In this document: one piece after another, positions 31,051 to 39,434 of the stretch
How positions within the stretch are numbered: position 1 is the first letter of the stretch
How the letters are laid out: the number at the start of each line of letters is the position of its first letter
Source: Azospirillum brasilense
GTDB lineage: Bacteria; Pseudomonadota; Alphaproteobacteria; Azospirillales; Azospirillaceae
Length of the DNA: 64,000 nucleotides
Direction: 5' to 3'
Assembly: GCF_001315015.1 (NCBI RefSeq)
Contig: NZ_CP012914.1
Span: 2,042,501 to 2,106,500 of the forward strand
Program-made: the position numbers and the translations under genes
The notes under the pieces: generated by a model
Databases searched by the model: none
Told to the model about the DNA's origin: nothing
Seen by the model: only the letters and a program-made list of their open reading frames with translations

Positions 31051-31935
31051 ATGGCGACGATATCCAGCGTTCCGGTCATCAGTTCCGAAAGCAACCTCTC
31101 GCGCTATCTCCAGGAAATCCGCAAGTTCCCCATGCTCGCGGCGGAGGAGGAGTACATGCTGGCCAAGCGCTGGCAGGAGATCGAGGATTCGGACGCCGCG
31201 CACAAGCTGGTGACCAGCCATCTGCGGCTCGTTGCGAAGATCGCCATGGGCTACCGCGGCTACGGCCTGCCGCTGTCGGAGCTGATCTCCGAGGGCAACG
31301 TCGGCATGATGCAGGCGGTGAAGCGCTTCGACCCCGACCGCGGCTTCCGGCTGGCGACCTACGCCATGTGGTGGATTCGCGCCGCCATCCAGGAATACAT
31401 CCTGCACAGCTGGTCGCTGGTGAAGATGGGCACCACGGCGGCCCAGAAGAAGCTGTTCTTCAACCTGCGCCGCCTGAAGGGCCAGATGCAGGCCATCGAG
31501 GAGGGCGACATGTCGCCCGAGCAGGTGCGCCACGTCGCCACGACCCTCGACGTGCCGGAGCAGGACGTCGTCAACATGAACCGCCGCCTCAGCGCGCCCG
31601 ACCATTCGCTGAACGCGCCGCTGCGCGCCGACAGCGAAGGCGAGTGGCAGGACTGGCTGGTCGACGAGACGGCGAACCAGGAAATCTCCCTCGCCGAGAA
31701 CGAGGAGCTGGGCAAGCGGCGCAAGCTGCTGACCGCCGCCATGGAGAACCTGAACGAGCGCGAACGCGACATCCTGGTGGAGCGCCGCCTGCGCGACAAC
31801 CCGACCACGCTGGAGGATCTGTCGCAGAAGTACGGCATCAGCCGCGAGCGCGTCCGCCAGATCGAAGTGCGCGCCTTTGAAAAGCTCCAGAAGGCCATCC
31901 GCAACGCCGCGGTGGAGCAGAAGCTGGCTGGGTGA
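31051..31935 (+). CDS. rpoH: Heat-shock sigma factor RpoH (sigma-32)
   Basis: The 294-residue sigma factor has region 2 with SHLRLVAKIAMGYRGYGLPL and RFDPDRGFRLATYAMWWIRA, the RpoH box QKKLFFNLR at 132-140, and region 4 with TLEDLSQKYGISRERVRQIE. It directs transcription of chaperone and protease genes on heat stress. The ATG at 31051 follows GGAGAGGGTCC, a good ribosome site. The 180-bp gap upstream holds a possible TTCTTA-N17-TATACC promoter. Azospirilla are known to carry several rpoH genes, so this may be one of a set. Confidence 0.97.
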   Translation: MATISSVPVISSESNLSRYLQEIRKFPMLAAEEEYMLAKRWQEIEDSDAAHKLVTSHLRLVAKIAMGYRGYGLPLSELISEGNVGMMQAVKRFDPDRGFRLATYAMWWIRAAIQEYILHSWSLVKMGTTAAQKKLFFNLRRLKGQMQAIEEGDMSPEQVRHVATTLDVPEQDVVNMNRRLSAPDHSLNAPLRADSEGEWQDWLVDETANQEISLAENEELGKRRKLLTAAMENLNERERDILVERRLRDNPTTLEDLSQKYGISRERVRQIEVRAFEKLQKAIRNAAVEQKLAG

Positions 31936-31939
31936 TTAA

Positions 31940-32057
31940 CCCTCTCCCCTCTGGGGAGAGGGTGGCCCGAAGGGCCGGTGAGGGGGATGGGCGTGGCGGT
32001 ACGTCCGGCACAAGCACATCCCCCTCACCCTAACCCTCTCCCCGGAGGGGAGAGGGG
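31940..32057. repeat. Family 1 palindromic intergenic element, copy G
   Basis: The element has the same outer arms as copy A (CCCTCTCCCC/GGGGAGAGGGG). Its core at 31993-32014 differs from that of copy A by one base. The inner arms are GGGGGATG and CATCCCCC, where copy A has GGGGGTTGCGC and GCGCAACCCCC. The GGCCCGAAGGGCC side hairpin is on the left here and on the right in copy A. It sits between the convergent rpoH and 175-residue membrane protein genes. Confidence 0.8.
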
Positions 32058-32079
32058 ACATTGTATGAAGTCGCCGCCC

Positions 32080-32607
32080 TCACACCCCCGCGGGCTCGGC
32101 CAGCTGGTCGTGCTCGTCCGGCGACAGGCCGCCGGCCTCGTCGAACAGGTCGCCGGCGACCTCCGGCCCCCATTCCTGGACCAGCCCGACCTTCACGTCC
32201 TTCAGCGCGCTGACCCGCTTCTCGGCGCGCATCACCTCGAAATTCGCCACCATTGGCGGGATCCCGAAATAAAGCGCCCAGCCGATCGCCGCCGACCCGT
32301 ACATGATCAGCCAGGCCAGCGGGTCCATGAAGATCTTCCCCACGGCGCCGATGGTGTGGTTGTGCTTCCACAGCTCGATGGCGTAGGGCATGCAGCCGCA
32401 GAAATTCAGCCCGCCGACGGTGATCGGCGCCGATTTCTCCGGGTCGCGGTCGGTGACGTAGGCGACGATGGTCGGGATCATGCCGATGCCGAACAGGATC
32501 GAGGTGGCCAGCACCACCAGACCCGCCGGGATGATCAGCAGGATCAGCGTCAGCATGCTGCCCTTGCGCTTCTTTTTCTTCCCGCCGCTCTTGCCGCCGC
32601 GCGCCAT
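32080..32607 (-). CDS. Small membrane protein next to the pseudokinase gene, unknown function
   Basis: I do not recognise this 175-residue protein. It opens with a basic stretch (GGKKKKRKG), then a long hydrophobic segment (LTLILLIIPAGLVVLATSIL and on to about residue 50), a short loop with NFCGCMPYA, a second hydrophobic segment (PLAWLIMYGSAAIGWALYFG) and an acidic cytoplasmic tail of about 55 residues (DLFDEAGGLSPDEHDQ). It begins 33 bp after the stop of the pseudokinase gene on the same strand, so the two are probably cotranscribed and may work together at the membrane. Confidence 0.75.
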   Translation of the reverse strand: MARGGKSGGKKKKRKGSMLTLILLIIPAGLVVLATSILFGIGMIPTIVAYVTDRDPEKSAPITVGGLNFCGCMPYAIELWKHNHTIGAVGKIFMDPLAWLIMYGSAAIGWALYFGIPPMVANFEVMRAEKRVSALKDVKVGLVQEWGPEVAGDLFDEAGGLSPDEHDQLAEPAGV

Positions 32608-32640
32608 GGGTGCACCCGATCCTTGGTTTGAAGGCCGCCG

Positions 32641-34683
32641 TCAGAAGGCGAAGAAGAGGATGATGCCGCCGACCAGAATCGTGGACAGCAGGCTCGACAC
32701 GATGGCCGCCACCTGCCGTCCGGAGGATTCGATGATGCTGTTCCGGTCGCCGATGCTCTGCCGCAGCTTGTTGATCTCGGCGTCGGCCTCGCGGTAGGCG
32801 ATCTGGCCGGCCTCGAACTCCAGCTTGTCGCGGCGCAACGCCTCCGGATCGTCGACGATCTTCAGCAGATCGCCGAGGCGCCCGTTGTGGGCCGCGGAGT
32901 CGGCCTGCTTGCGCACGTTGTCCTGGTGCGGCCGGCTGTGAAAGCGGCGGAAGGCCGGGTCGAGCAGCGACACCACCCAGGCGGCGAGGTGCGACAGCGA
33001 GTCGGTGCCGGTGCGCGCCTGGACGTCGGCCAGGATGGTCAGCATGGCGATCACCCGGCGCATCGGCTCGATGCTGGAGCCGAGCTGGGTGTAGAGCATC
33101 TCGTCGGTCCGCCGGTGCCGCACCGCCAGGAAGGCGGCGATGTGGCGGTCGATGGGGTCCTTGTGCCGCTCGCTGCCCGCCCCCGTCCAGTCGAGCGCGC
33201 GCAGCAGTTCCGCCGGGGTGGTCGGCATCTGCTTGGCGACGAGCGGGCTGATGCAGGGCATGGTCGGGTTCATCTCGTACAGGACGCGCTCCACCCCCAG
33301 ACCGTGGCCCGTGCGGTCCAGCAAACCGCGGACCTGATCAAAGTTCTGCACCATCGGCACGAACTCCGGCTTGAAGTCGCTCTGCACGCTCACCCAGAAC
33401 ATGGGAAGCTGGTTGGCCAGGACTTCCGCCGACGGCTGCGGCGACTCGCCGCGCAGGAAGGCGTCGGCCAGCATGGTGCCGATGCCGTCGGGCATCATCG
33501 CCTTGCCGCGGTAGCGGATGGGCGCGCCGGGGTCCAGCGCCATGCAGACGCGGGCGACCAGCCGTTCGGCCATGCTGCCGCCCTTGCCGGTGGTCGAGGC
33601 GGTCTGCACCGCGTTCGCCACCGCCTCCGCCCGCGCGTCGTCGCCCATGGAGCGGCGCAGCCACTTGTCCAGCTCGCCGCCCTCGATGACCGTGGCCGCC
33701 GGCGCCACATGGCGGGCGAAGGCGCGGGCCAGCGTGCGGCAATGCCAGTAATCCTGCCCCTGGAACTCCAGCGGTCGGGCGGCGCGGCGCGGCACCTGCG
33801 GCTGCTTCGGGCTGAGACGCCGCCCGGCGACCCAGAGGTCGAGGTCCTGAAGCGTCCAGCGCTGCTTGGGATCGTCCACCAGCAGGCCGCGGATCACCTC
33901 GCTGATGGCCAGCGGCAGGCGCATCTGGCCGACCAGCGCCGGGTAGGACCCGCGCTCGATCTTGGCCTGGAGGATCGCCTCGTCCTCCGCCGCCCCCACC
34001 GGGTTGCGTCCCAGCAGCAGGAGCAGCAGCGTGACGCCCAGCGAGTAGAGGTCGTCGGCCATGGTGCCGGTGCCGCGCCCGGCGGGCGAGGCCATGCCGC
34101 GTTCCACCGTCTCCAGCAGGACCGACTGGCCGTAGCCGGGCGGGGTGGACAGGCATTCGCCCAGCATCAGGCTGCTGGAGGCCAGATCGCGGTAGTAGAG
34201 GTTGGTCGGGCGGATCGCGCCATGGACCACGCCGCGGCTCGACAGCTCCTTCAGCGCCGCGACCAGCGGATGGATGATCTGGCGGGTCAGATGGTCTTCG
34301 GGGATCGGGTCCGCGGCCTCGGTCAGGCTGTTCATCAGCCGCTTGCCCGCCGGACGCTCGAAGATCATGCAGAGGCGGCGCCCCTGGCTCGCCGGCCAAT
34401 CCACCATCCCCCAGTCGAGGAGGCGCATGTGGGCCTGGTTGTCGAGGCTGGCGATGGTCGCGGCGATGTCGGTGCGGGCCAGCGTGGCGCCGTGGCCGAT
34501 GATGGCGAAGGCTTCGGACCGCTTGTCACGCAGCGGCTTGGCCGTGTAGGCGTTGCCGCCGATGGCGTTGAGCGCGGCGAGCGGCGCGCTGGGGTGGATT
34601 TCGTACCGCTCGGCCAGCTTGACCGGCTCGGCGTTCGCCATCATCCGATCCGCGGCGGCTGCGGTCATGGCATCGGATGGCAT
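32641..34683 (-). CDS. Tail-anchored pseudokinase-like protein
   Basis: The 680-residue product has a Ser/Thr kinase-like fold at about 25-290, but the catalytic signatures are degraded. The catalytic loop reads HGAIRPTN (154-161) where active kinases have HRDLKPxN, so the proton-acceptor aspartate is absent; LMLGE stands where DFG is expected (172-176); no glycine-rich loop is clear, although K49 in AYTAK may match the ATP lysine. DDLYSLGVTLL (210-220) confirms the kinase fold. About 350 further residues have no recognised domain, and the protein ends in one helix (LLSTILVGGIILFFAF), a C-terminal anchor with the bulk in the cytoplasm. A signalling scaffold role is inferred. Confidence 0.8.
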   Translation of the reverse strand: MPSDAMTAAAADRMMANAEPVKLAERYEIHPSAPLAALNAIGGNAYTAKPLRDKRSEAFAIIGHGATLARTDIAATIASLDNQAHMRLLDWGMVDWPASQGRRLCMIFERPAGKRLMNSLTEAADPIPEDHLTRQIIHPLVAALKELSSRGVVHGAIRPTNLYYRDLASSSLMLGECLSTPPGYGQSVLLETVERGMASPAGRGTGTMADDLYSLGVTLLLLLLGRNPVGAAEDEAILQAKIERGSYPALVGQMRLPLAISEVIRGLLVDDPKQRWTLQDLDLWVAGRRLSPKQPQVPRRAARPLEFQGQDYWHCRTLARAFARHVAPAATVIEGGELDKWLRRSMGDDARAEAVANAVQTASTTGKGGSMAERLVARVCMALDPGAPIRYRGKAMMPDGIGTMLADAFLRGESPQPSAEVLANQLPMFWVSVQSDFKPEFVPMVQNFDQVRGLLDRTGHGLGVERVLYEMNPTMPCISPLVAKQMPTTPAELLRALDWTGAGSERHKDPIDRHIAAFLAVRHRRTDEMLYTQLGSSIEPMRRVIAMLTILADVQARTGTDSLSHLAAWVVSLLDPAFRRFHSRPHQDNVRKQADSAAHNGRLGDLLKIVDDPEALRRDKLEFEAGQIAYREADAEINKLRQSIGDRNSIIESSGRQVAAIVSSLLSTILVGGIILFFAF

Positions 34684-34778
34684 GGCGTTCGAATCCCCGG
34701 AGCCTGCGAGCGTGTGCCAGCCTTAGTCGCTCGAAAAGGGCAAACAAATTGTTAACGCGGGGAAAGTGGTCGCATCGG

Positions 34779-34866
34779 GCCCCCTCCCCGGCCCTCCCCC
34801 GCTGACGCGGGAGAGGGAGATCAGTCCTCTCTCCCACCGAAGGTGGGGGAGGGTTAGGGAGGGGGC
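34779..34866. repeat. Family 2 palindromic intergenic element, copy H
   Basis: This 88-bp element has the same ends and CCCCCGCTGACGCGGGAGAG centre as copies J and I. It lies 20 bp after the purA stop, within the 203-bp gap before the pseudokinase gene on the same strand. GGGCCCCC and GGGGGCCC extend its outer arms. Confidence 0.8.
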
Positions 34867-34886
34867 CCGGGGCCTAAACCTTCACA

Positions 34887-36179
<1,293 letters not shown>

Positions 36180-37724: not shown

Positions 37725-39434
37725 ATGGCACGCCCGTCCGCCAGTTACGAAGTGCAGATCTACGCCCAGGACCACTGGGTCCTGGAGGGCCGCTTCGACA
37801 CCGAGGCGGAGGCGCTGGTCTTCGGCCGCAAGACGCTGTCCGGCGGCAGGATCGAGGGCATGCGGGTGGTGCGCGACTGGCGGCGCCCGGACGGACGCCA
37901 CGTCGAGACGGAAGTCCATGTGGAGTTCCGTCAGGTCTCCCGCATGGTGGCCGCCTCCCCCATCGACGAGACGCCGGCGCTCTGCCTCACGCTCGACCAC
38001 TGCTACGGCGTGCAGAGCCGCATGGCGATGAACCGCGTGCTGCGCAATTACGTGGAGCGCGCGGTGGTTACCCCGACCGAGGTGCTGCACAACCACGCGG
38101 AACTGGCCCGGCTTCTAAACACCGACAACCTCGTGCCCACCGCGGTCGGGCGGGTCGCCGCACTCCAGGCGGAGAAGGCCGGGACGGACGGGCGCGGGCG
38201 GCGCGACGCGCTGAACCGGCTGATGCACGAACTGACCGACCGGGCGCGCGCCGCCGCCGCGCGCAAGGACCTGCCGCCCATCGCCGCCACCGGCTTCCGC
38301 CCCATGTTCGACCGGCTGGATTCGAGCCTGCCGGCGGAGGAGCGCGACTTCCTCGCCCGCGTCGTGCTGTCGCGCGAGCTGGTGCAGATGCGCAACTGGC
38401 TGGCCAAGCTGGACTTCCTGGGGGAGCTGGCTCGGGAGGACGGAGGTGCGGTTGACCGGCCGCTGGTTCTGCTCGACGGCGTGATTGCCGACGTTCTGGG
38501 CGCCCCCTCCGTCGCGCAGGAGCTTCTCGGCGCCCAGGGCAGCCTGGCGGAGGCGCTGTGCAATCTGATCGACCTGTCGCGGGGCCGCCTGTCCCCGGCC
38601 AAGCGGGCGGAGGGCGACCGCGCCGTCCAGCTCAACGAGCTTCTCGCCTTCCATGACCTCGACCAGACGCGGCTGGTCATCCTGGATCTGGTGCGCCGGC
38701 AGTTGAAGGGCACGCAGCCGCTCTATCGCTCCGACCCGTCGTTGGAGATGGAGGCCTTCCAGGAGATCCTGAAGCGCACGCTCGGCCCCGACGGGCCGGC
38801 CGGGGGCGGCCCGATGGCGGAGGCGCTGGTCCTGCGCTACCTGCGCTTCCTGGAGGGCGGCGGGGCGCCGGGCCGCAAGCAGGCCATCACGGAGGTGGCC
38901 AGCCGCATCCCCGACGCGCGGGACCGGGTGCGCTTCCTGCTCGCGCTGGCCGACTCCGACCTCGGCCATGGGCATGCCGGGGACATCGCCCGGCTGCTGC
39001 ACGCGCTGACTGGCACCCCGGCGGGCTATGGCCGCTTCATCCACCCCCGCCTGCCGCCCCGCGACAATCTGGAAACGCTGACCCTGCTCTACTGCCAAGC
39101 CGCCGACTCGGCGCTTCCGGAGGAGGCGCGAACCCGCCTGACCGGTGACCTCGACGCGCTTCTGGTGGCCTACATCACCGAGGAGCGGGTGGTCGAGCGG
39201 CTGGACGATCCTGGCGATTCCCTGCGGCTGCGCGCGAACCGTCTGCTGCAGGTCTGCGCGCCGGGCATCCTGCGCAGCCGGCGGGCCCTGGAGATGGTCC
39301 GGCGCCGCGTGGTCGAGCATCTCCGCCAACCGCAGTTCGACCGGAAATACGTGGAGGATCTGCCCGACGCGGCGCAGCAGCAGCGCGCCCTAAGGGAGTT
39401 CTACCGCATGTTGGGAGACGCCGGCTTCGTGTGA
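37725..39434 (+). CDS. Large protein of unknown function (569 aa)
   Basis: I cannot assign this protein. It begins YEVQIYAQDHWVLEGRFDTE, a small alpha/beta module of about 70 residues, and then becomes strongly helical and rich in Arg, Leu, Ala and Glu, with runs such as RRQLKGTQPLYRSDPSLEME and VEHLRQPQFDRKYVEDLPDA. There is no signal peptide, membrane segment or known catalytic motif. The ATG at 37725 is preceded by GGGGGAACGACGCC. The helical body would suit a scaffold or regulator. It lies 290 bp from hisZ (divergent) and 110 bp from trkH (same strand). Codon use is like that of its neighbours. Confidence 0.75.
   Translation: MARPSASYEVQIYAQDHWVLEGRFDTEAEALVFGRKTLSGGRIEGMRVVRDWRRPDGRHVETEVHVEFRQVSRMVAASPIDETPALCLTLDHCYGVQSRMAMNRVLRNYVERAVVTPTEVLHNHAELARLLNTDNLVPTAVGRVAALQAEKAGTDGRGRRDALNRLMHELTDRARAAAARKDLPPIAATGFRPMFDRLDSSLPAEERDFLARVVLSRELVQMRNWLAKLDFLGELAREDGGAVDRPLVLLDGVIADVLGAPSVAQELLGAQGSLAEALCNLIDLSRGRLSPAKRAEGDRAVQLNELLAFHDLDQTRLVILDLVRRQLKGTQPLYRSDPSLEMEAFQEILKRTLGPDGPAGGGPMAEALVLRYLRFLEGGGAPGRKQAITEVASRIPDARDRVRFLLALADSDLGHGHAGDIARLLHALTGTPAGYGRFIHPRLPPRDNLETLTLLYCQAADSALPEEARTRLTGDLDALLVAYITEERVVERLDDPGDSLRLRANRLLQVCAPGILRSRRALEMVRRRVVEHLRQPQFDRKYVEDLPDAAQQQRALREFYRMLGDAGFV

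Follow-up and report, generated by a model that had tools for sequence, protein, structure and literature searches.

A candidate non-phosphorylating pseudokinase paired with a small membrane protein in Azospirillum and other Alphaproteobacteria

According to the usual rule, a pseudokinase has lost at least one of three catalytic residues, i.e., the beta3 lysine, the HRD aspartate, and the DFG aspartate; a scaffold is the default guess for the role of any such protein. Bacterial pseudokinases have hardly been studied, and a 2025 review describes seven families of them (PMC12599244). EssB/YukC, which lie in a type VIIb secretion neighbourhood, are membrane-tethered cytoplasmic pseudokinases with degraded motifs and an extracellular domain beyond the membrane helix, and act as non-catalytic scaffolds with membrane partners (PMC12599244). 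The GLW pseudokinases are mainly proteobacterial, have GLW in place of HRD, a hydrophobic (poly-Leu/Trp) beta3 residue, and a C-terminal transmembrane region (PMC12599244). DLHK pseudokinases, also proteobacterial, combine a degraded ATP-binding motif with a catalytic-loop arginine (Hrdlrpas in P. aeruginosa); they keep the HRD aspartate, lack transmembrane regions, and are often linked to helicase domains. ActPs1, ActPs2, and ActPs3 are predominantly actinobacterial, ActPs2 having a beta3 arginine and an HRD asparagine, and ActPs3 a complete loss of the motifs and an activation-loop deletion (PMC12599244). In mycobacteria, MviN/ActPs3 ties a pseudokinase with a recruiter role to a membrane function, the kinase fold being built into the MviN membrane protein.

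The locus considered in the present work belongs to an Azospirillum brasilense-group genome, with named relatives showing 98-99% identity, and lies in a window of 64,000 nucleotides, i.e., the whole stretch of DNA analysed, to which all the coordinates refer. It consists of two ORFs on the minus strand: the first codes for a 680-residue protein (34683..32641), the second, 3' of it, for a 175-residue protein (32607..32080), and the stop of the former and the start of the latter are separated by 33 bp. These coordinates and the gap confirm what the first-pass annotation of this DNA had reported. Upstream of the pair, on the same strand, there are hisZ and purA (34887..36179, minus strand, PF00709), while rpoH (31051..31935, plus strand, recognised from its sigma-70 domains) lies downstream in convergent orientation; these neighbours are given as context, with no functional claim attached. 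None of the nine neighbouring genes checked codes for a phosphatase or an FHA protein, in agreement with the earlier statement that no such gene lies beside the pair. In Azospirillum thermophilum, the equivalent genes appear in RefSeq in identical order as "serine/threonine protein kinase" (DEW08_RS23880) followed by "hypothetical protein". GC-rich palindromic stretches occur on both sides of the pair (31938-32060 and 34770-34872); the first one includes CCCTCACCCTAACCCTCTCCCC, which has three occurrences in the window (allowing at most three mismatches) and none in shuffled sequences. A scan for sigma-70 promoters found none, which is uninformative. Between hisZ and trkH, the window also harbors a gene for a 561-residue protein (37749-39434, plus strand) without any Pfam match; A. 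thermophilum also has a gene for a hypothetical protein close to the corresponding position.

The kinase-like domain of the 680-residue protein spans approximately residues 20-290 (33814..34626, minus strand). Its Pfam Pkinase (PF00069) score is marginal (31.9 bits, where the cut-off is 31.7); the same match was obtained for 17 out of 20 diverse family members, and the family profile matches solved kinase structures, including MK2, titin, and CaMK, with an E value of 4e-13. The assignment of the kinase fold thus rests on sequence profiles. The motifs were read from an alignment of 75 homologues from diverse families; in the 680-residue protein, DDLYSLGVTLL corresponds to residues 210-220 and the degenerate catalytic loop HGAIRPTN to residues 154-161 (34201..34224, minus strand). 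At the position of the beta3 lysine, about which the first-pass annotation was silent, the protein has Ile62; lysine is replaced in 74 sequences (by V, I, or L in 70) and retained in one. The catalytic aspartate had been described as lost, and the HRD position, Ala156 in this protein, is indeed replaced in 73 out of 75 sequences, mostly by A, G, S, N, or R. No sequence has both residues, and 72 lack both. Family-wide, the loop reads H-[RG]-[AGSN]-I-R-P-x-N, with H at position 154 in 65 sequences, R or G at 155, and mostly A, G, S, or N at 156; arginine takes the place of the catalytic-loop lysine in 63 sequences, none of the 75 has a lysine there, and the metal-ligand Asn161 is conserved in 71. 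The DFG motif is replaced by GECL (residues 175-178; 34150..34161, minus strand) and, across the homologues, by [ED]-C-x. The earlier claim that it had been lost holds for F and G, but not for the acidic metal-ligand position (Glu176 here), which is E in 34 sequences and D in 30, with P or Q in the remaining 11; since an acidic residue is mostly kept, the motif is degraded rather than erased. As for the possibility that the catalytic residues had simply shifted, the aspartate and the lysine are truly lost, whereas the metal-ligand Asp/Glu and Asn are mostly kept and stand in register. The combination of lost Lys and Asp with retained Asn and acidic residue occurs in 58 out of 75 homologues. 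The set of beta3 Lys, HRD Asp, and DFG Asp that characterizes a canonical Hanks-type Ser/Thr kinase is not present and, given the loss of the first two across the 75 homologues, the 680-residue protein counts, by its sequence, as a pseudokinase under the standard rule of three motifs. Two homologues (L104 and L105) have an aspartate at the HRD position (HGD) and lack the beta3 lysine; they may represent intermediate stages on the way to losing catalysis.

The kinase-like domain is followed by a C-terminal domain covering approximately residues 296-600 (32884..33798, minus strand), for which no Pfam family exceeded the threshold in the window protein or in 20 diverse members. An uncharacterized region of about 350 residues had been proposed at first reading, and this proposal stands: in a phylum-wide sample, the profile of the domain retrieved full-length members of the pseudokinase family, all from Alphaproteobacteria, with the single exception of one marginal partial hit (3.8e-5). 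Probing the PDB with the same profile gave only weak matches to designed Armadillo repeats, a hint of a helical-repeat fold. The domain is predicted, from a low-confidence model, to be mostly helical, and this pseudokinase family would be the only one from which it is known. Its most conserved stretch is GxGxERxLYxxNPxxPCxS (residues 461-479; 33247..33303, minus strand), in which Tyr469 and Cys477 are invariant (75/75) and Glu465 and Arg466 nearly so; a second patch, DRHIAAF (DRHxAAF in the family; residues 512-518; 33130..33150, minus strand), retains Asp512 and His514 in 73 out of 75 sequences. In the kinase-like domain, Asp211 (74/75), Arg275 (75/75), and Arg70 (70/75) are similarly constrained. 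That both the fold residues and the C-terminal patch are so strongly constrained shows a working protein and argues against decay.

A long helix, predicted from the secondary structure of a low-confidence model at residues 613-645 (32749..32847, minus strand), precedes a C-terminal membrane anchor at residues 656-679 (32647..32718, minus strand). The membrane helix previously noticed there was confirmed, with a hydropathy of 2.39 over residues 658-676, and in the homologues only a few residues follow it. The protein is presumably tail-anchored with its bulk in the cytoplasm, as suggested by the kinase fold and by the fact that its one strong membrane helix lies at the end of the chain. The AlphaFold models of the two proteins of the pair, built from Azospirillum-only alignments, had mean pLDDT values of 47.8 and 59.7, respectively, and were rejected as evidence because their confidence was too low; a Foldseek search with the low-confidence pseudokinase model gave nothing significant, the best match (PEAK3, E 0.4) being treated as noise.

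The 175-residue partner has a basic N-terminus and at least two clear membrane helices, the clearest at residues 21-39 (32491..32547, minus strand; hydropathy 2.74) and the second at residues 98-116 (32260..32316, minus strand; hydropathy 1.40), with weaker hydrophobic stretches between them. No Pfam family matched the window protein. Conserved Pro, Asn, and Trp-Gly positions emerge from the alignment of 66 partner sequences, the latter within an EWG motif (residues 145-147; 32167..32175, minus strand; Trp146 in 64 and Gly147 in 65 out of 66). Of the features initially attributed to it, this protein keeps its membrane nature and its basic start; the CxC loop is conserved in Azospirillum, with Cys in only 15 (first) and 5 (second) of the 66 family-wide sequences, and there is little conservation in the acidic tail.

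The reading that we favour, and hold to be fairly probable, is that the two proteins form a complex at the cytoplasmic membrane in which a non-phosphorylating pseudokinase serves as a scaffold or switch. The 680-residue protein would contribute a kinase fold without phosphate transfer, joined to the helical domain and held by its C-terminal anchor, with most of its mass in the cytoplasm; the small membrane protein would be its dedicated partner, whose basic N-terminus and long C-terminal helix with EWG, if cytoplasmic, could hold the pseudokinase in direct contact. The kinase fold might still bind a metal or a nucleotide through Asn161 and the Glu/Asp at position 176, and may act as a docking platform or a conformational switch, while the GxGxERxLY...PCxS stretch and the DRH patch might bind an effector or ligand; both the switch and its ligand are conjecture. 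The loss of the beta3 Lys and of the HRD Asp argues against phosphotransfer; against a non-catalytic reading stand the two homologues in which the HRD Asp survives and the one that retains the Lys. The first-pass annotation had spoken of a membrane-bound, nucleotide-sensing or scaffold unit: a tail-anchored pseudokinase linked to a small membrane protein is what the data support, with the scaffold as the best reading and nucleotide sensing as a putative, possible function. A broader proposal, which we put forward tentatively, is that the pair represents an undescribed, class-wide alphaproteobacterial core for membrane signalling or assembly, in which the kinase fold would read a nucleotide or perform a non-kinase reaction and relay the outcome through the helical domain to the partner.

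The main rival of the scaffold or switch reading is an atypical enzymatic activity, either of a repurposed kinase fold or of the Cys/His/Asp/Glu/Arg patch of the helical domain. Kinase folds are known to have been repurposed, for AMPylation in SelO and for glutamylation in SidJ. The retained metal-ligand positions (Asn161 and the acidic residue at 176) leave room for unusual catalysis, the catalytic-loop Arg and Arg70 could hold phosphates, and the invariant or nearly invariant residues of the two C-terminal patches would suit an active site; moreover, other bacterial pseudokinases do have new activities (PMC12599244). On the other hand, the 72 homologues devoid of both Lys and Asp show no obvious substitute for them, the acidic position is not universal, and the conserved residues may be structural. 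We regard such an enzyme as unlikely.

The phylogenetic distribution of the two genes was analyzed by profile searches on 385 alphaproteobacterial genomes. The pseudokinase was found in 131 of them and the partner, with a clear match, in 132 (135 before three very weak matches were discounted). Both are present in 130 of the 133 genomes having either; the two partner-only genomes are incomplete assemblies (84% and 75%), and in the sole pseudokinase-only genome a weak partner ORF is directly adjacent. The Fisher p value for this co-occurrence, about 3e-100, ignores shared ancestry and is to be read as descriptive only. Full-length pseudokinase homologues occur in all 37 Azospirillum genomes sampled, the partner in 82 out of 82 genomes of the order, and the carriers include genomes of less than 2 Mb. 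The partner lies directly downstream, on the same strand, of 131 out of 146 pseudokinase gene matches, several of the other 15 being fragments or located at contig ends, and in some genomes the stop and start codons of the two genes overlap. The pair is thus a near-obligate unit, in line with the initial suggestion that the two genes belong together and contrary to the alternative that they are rarely found together; such a strict pairing with one small membrane protein offers an immediately testable partner. No full-length pseudokinase was retrieved outside Alphaproteobacteria in the phylum sample, plasmid searches for named non-Azospirillum members returned Azospirillum matches only, and no phage record matched. 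Four genomes harbor a pseudokinase paralogue without an adjacent partner (second copies L169 and L171, and those of G315 and G215), and the genomes G050 and G227, both from one family, harbor three extra partner copies each (L153-L158) with no pseudokinase beside them, whose neighbours form differing contexts and give no functional clue.

The genomic context was compared at 71 loci, some of them cut by contig ends: in 43 of them purA precedes the pair in the same orientation, as does hisZ in 37, and rpoH follows in convergent orientation in 35. The recurrence of these genes around the pair means that its position is conserved in general and would fit two independent genes kept together only by a conserved hisZ-purA/rpoH neighbourhood. 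This explanation is improbable, because the two genes also neighbour each other at loci whose retrieved sequence showed no purA/rpoH context (for example L101, L176, and L182), genomes in which they lie apart (G298 and G382) still retain both, and the pair duplicates as a unit: in two genomes it is tandemly duplicated and, for both genes, the closest sequence to each copy is its counterpart. The distances among the proteins track those of purA (r 0.59), which suits vertical descent with lineage loss. Furthermore, the distances of the pseudokinase and of the partner correlate beyond the purA control (partial r 0.42, against a maximum of 0.32 in 1000 label shuffles); since label shuffling destroys the phylogenetic structure, this mirror-tree value is only suggestive.

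Allosteric control of another kinase is a common role of eukaryotic pseudokinases, and the protein might likewise control a canonical Ser/Thr kinase in its own cell. The genome of the window does possess two canonical Pkinase genes elsewhere (G000:C1:397013-397771 and G000:C2:877133-877792). However, in 10 out of 20 carrier genomes tested no further gene matches Pkinase (E<=1e-4, a threshold at which weaker kinases could be missed), so that in half of these carriers the pseudokinase is the only detectable Hanks-fold gene; it is not simply an activator of a partner kinase, and allosteric control, quite improbable as an explanation, was probably not the ancestral role common to the family. A normal, active Ser/Thr kinase with catalytic residues only seemingly shifted would agree with the RefSeq name, the marginal Pfam match, and the acidic DFG-Asp position, yet it is very improbable, since the HRD Asp and the beta3 Lys are missing in register family-wide and the alignment largely contradicts it. 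A pseudokinase found in approximately one third of the sampled Alphaproteobacteria is nonetheless named as an active kinase in RefSeq.

The literature search found nothing on the pair, in accordance with the earlier impression that no function had been described and, judging from Pfam, the literature, and the descriptions of the seven reviewed families, the pair appears to match no described family. Compared by the descriptions in the review, the 680-residue protein fails a defining feature of each of the seven families, none of which has these features (PMC12599244). These seven leave 35 of the 42 bacterial STK families cited in the review, which are told apart by family-specific residue patterns, and the protein may already sit within that classification without a description as a pseudokinase. 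ActPs1, ActPs2, and ActPs3 differ from a protein confined to Alphaproteobacteria in the phylum sample, with V, I, or L at beta3 and Asn161 kept; CP1 pseudokinases are linked to a COG3899 ATPase and have no transmembrane region, while here no Pfam ATPase lies C-terminally and a membrane helix is present; DYD pseudokinases (actinobacteria/firmicutes) have a beta3 Arg and DYD for DFG, where this family has V/I/L and [ED]-C-x. The phage-defence kinases PD-T4-6 and MAD6 match in the kinase region alone (MAD6 with 36.6 bits against a cut-off of 460), and the neighbours of the pair are housekeeping genes.

The DLHK group shares the catalytic-loop Arg and the degraded ATP-binding motif, and differs in its HRD Asp, found in 2 out of 75 homologues here, and in lacking the C-terminal membrane helix. 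MviN/ActPs3 likewise ties a pseudokinase to a membrane function; the 680-residue protein joins its kinase fold to another domain, and its membrane partner is a protein in its own right. With the GLW family, it has in common a proteobacterial distribution, the lost HRD, the hydrophobic beta3 residue, and the C-terminal transmembrane region; in place of the GLW motif it mostly retains H at position 154, and its V/I/L at beta3 contrasts with the reported poly-Leu/Trp. The pair represents a clean system for asking what is left for a bacterial kinase fold to do after the loss of phosphorylation. The scaffold or switch outline finds an analogy in EssB/YukC, likewise a membrane-tethered cytoplasmic pseudokinase with degraded motifs and membrane partners. 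Unlike EssB/YukC, the 680-residue protein carries its anchor at the extreme C-terminus, where a few residues but no extracellular domain follow the helix, with a separate helical domain of about 350 residues in between, and housekeeping rather than secretion genes beside it. According to this comparison, the best reading is that the pair would resemble EssB/YukC in outline while standing outside that family.
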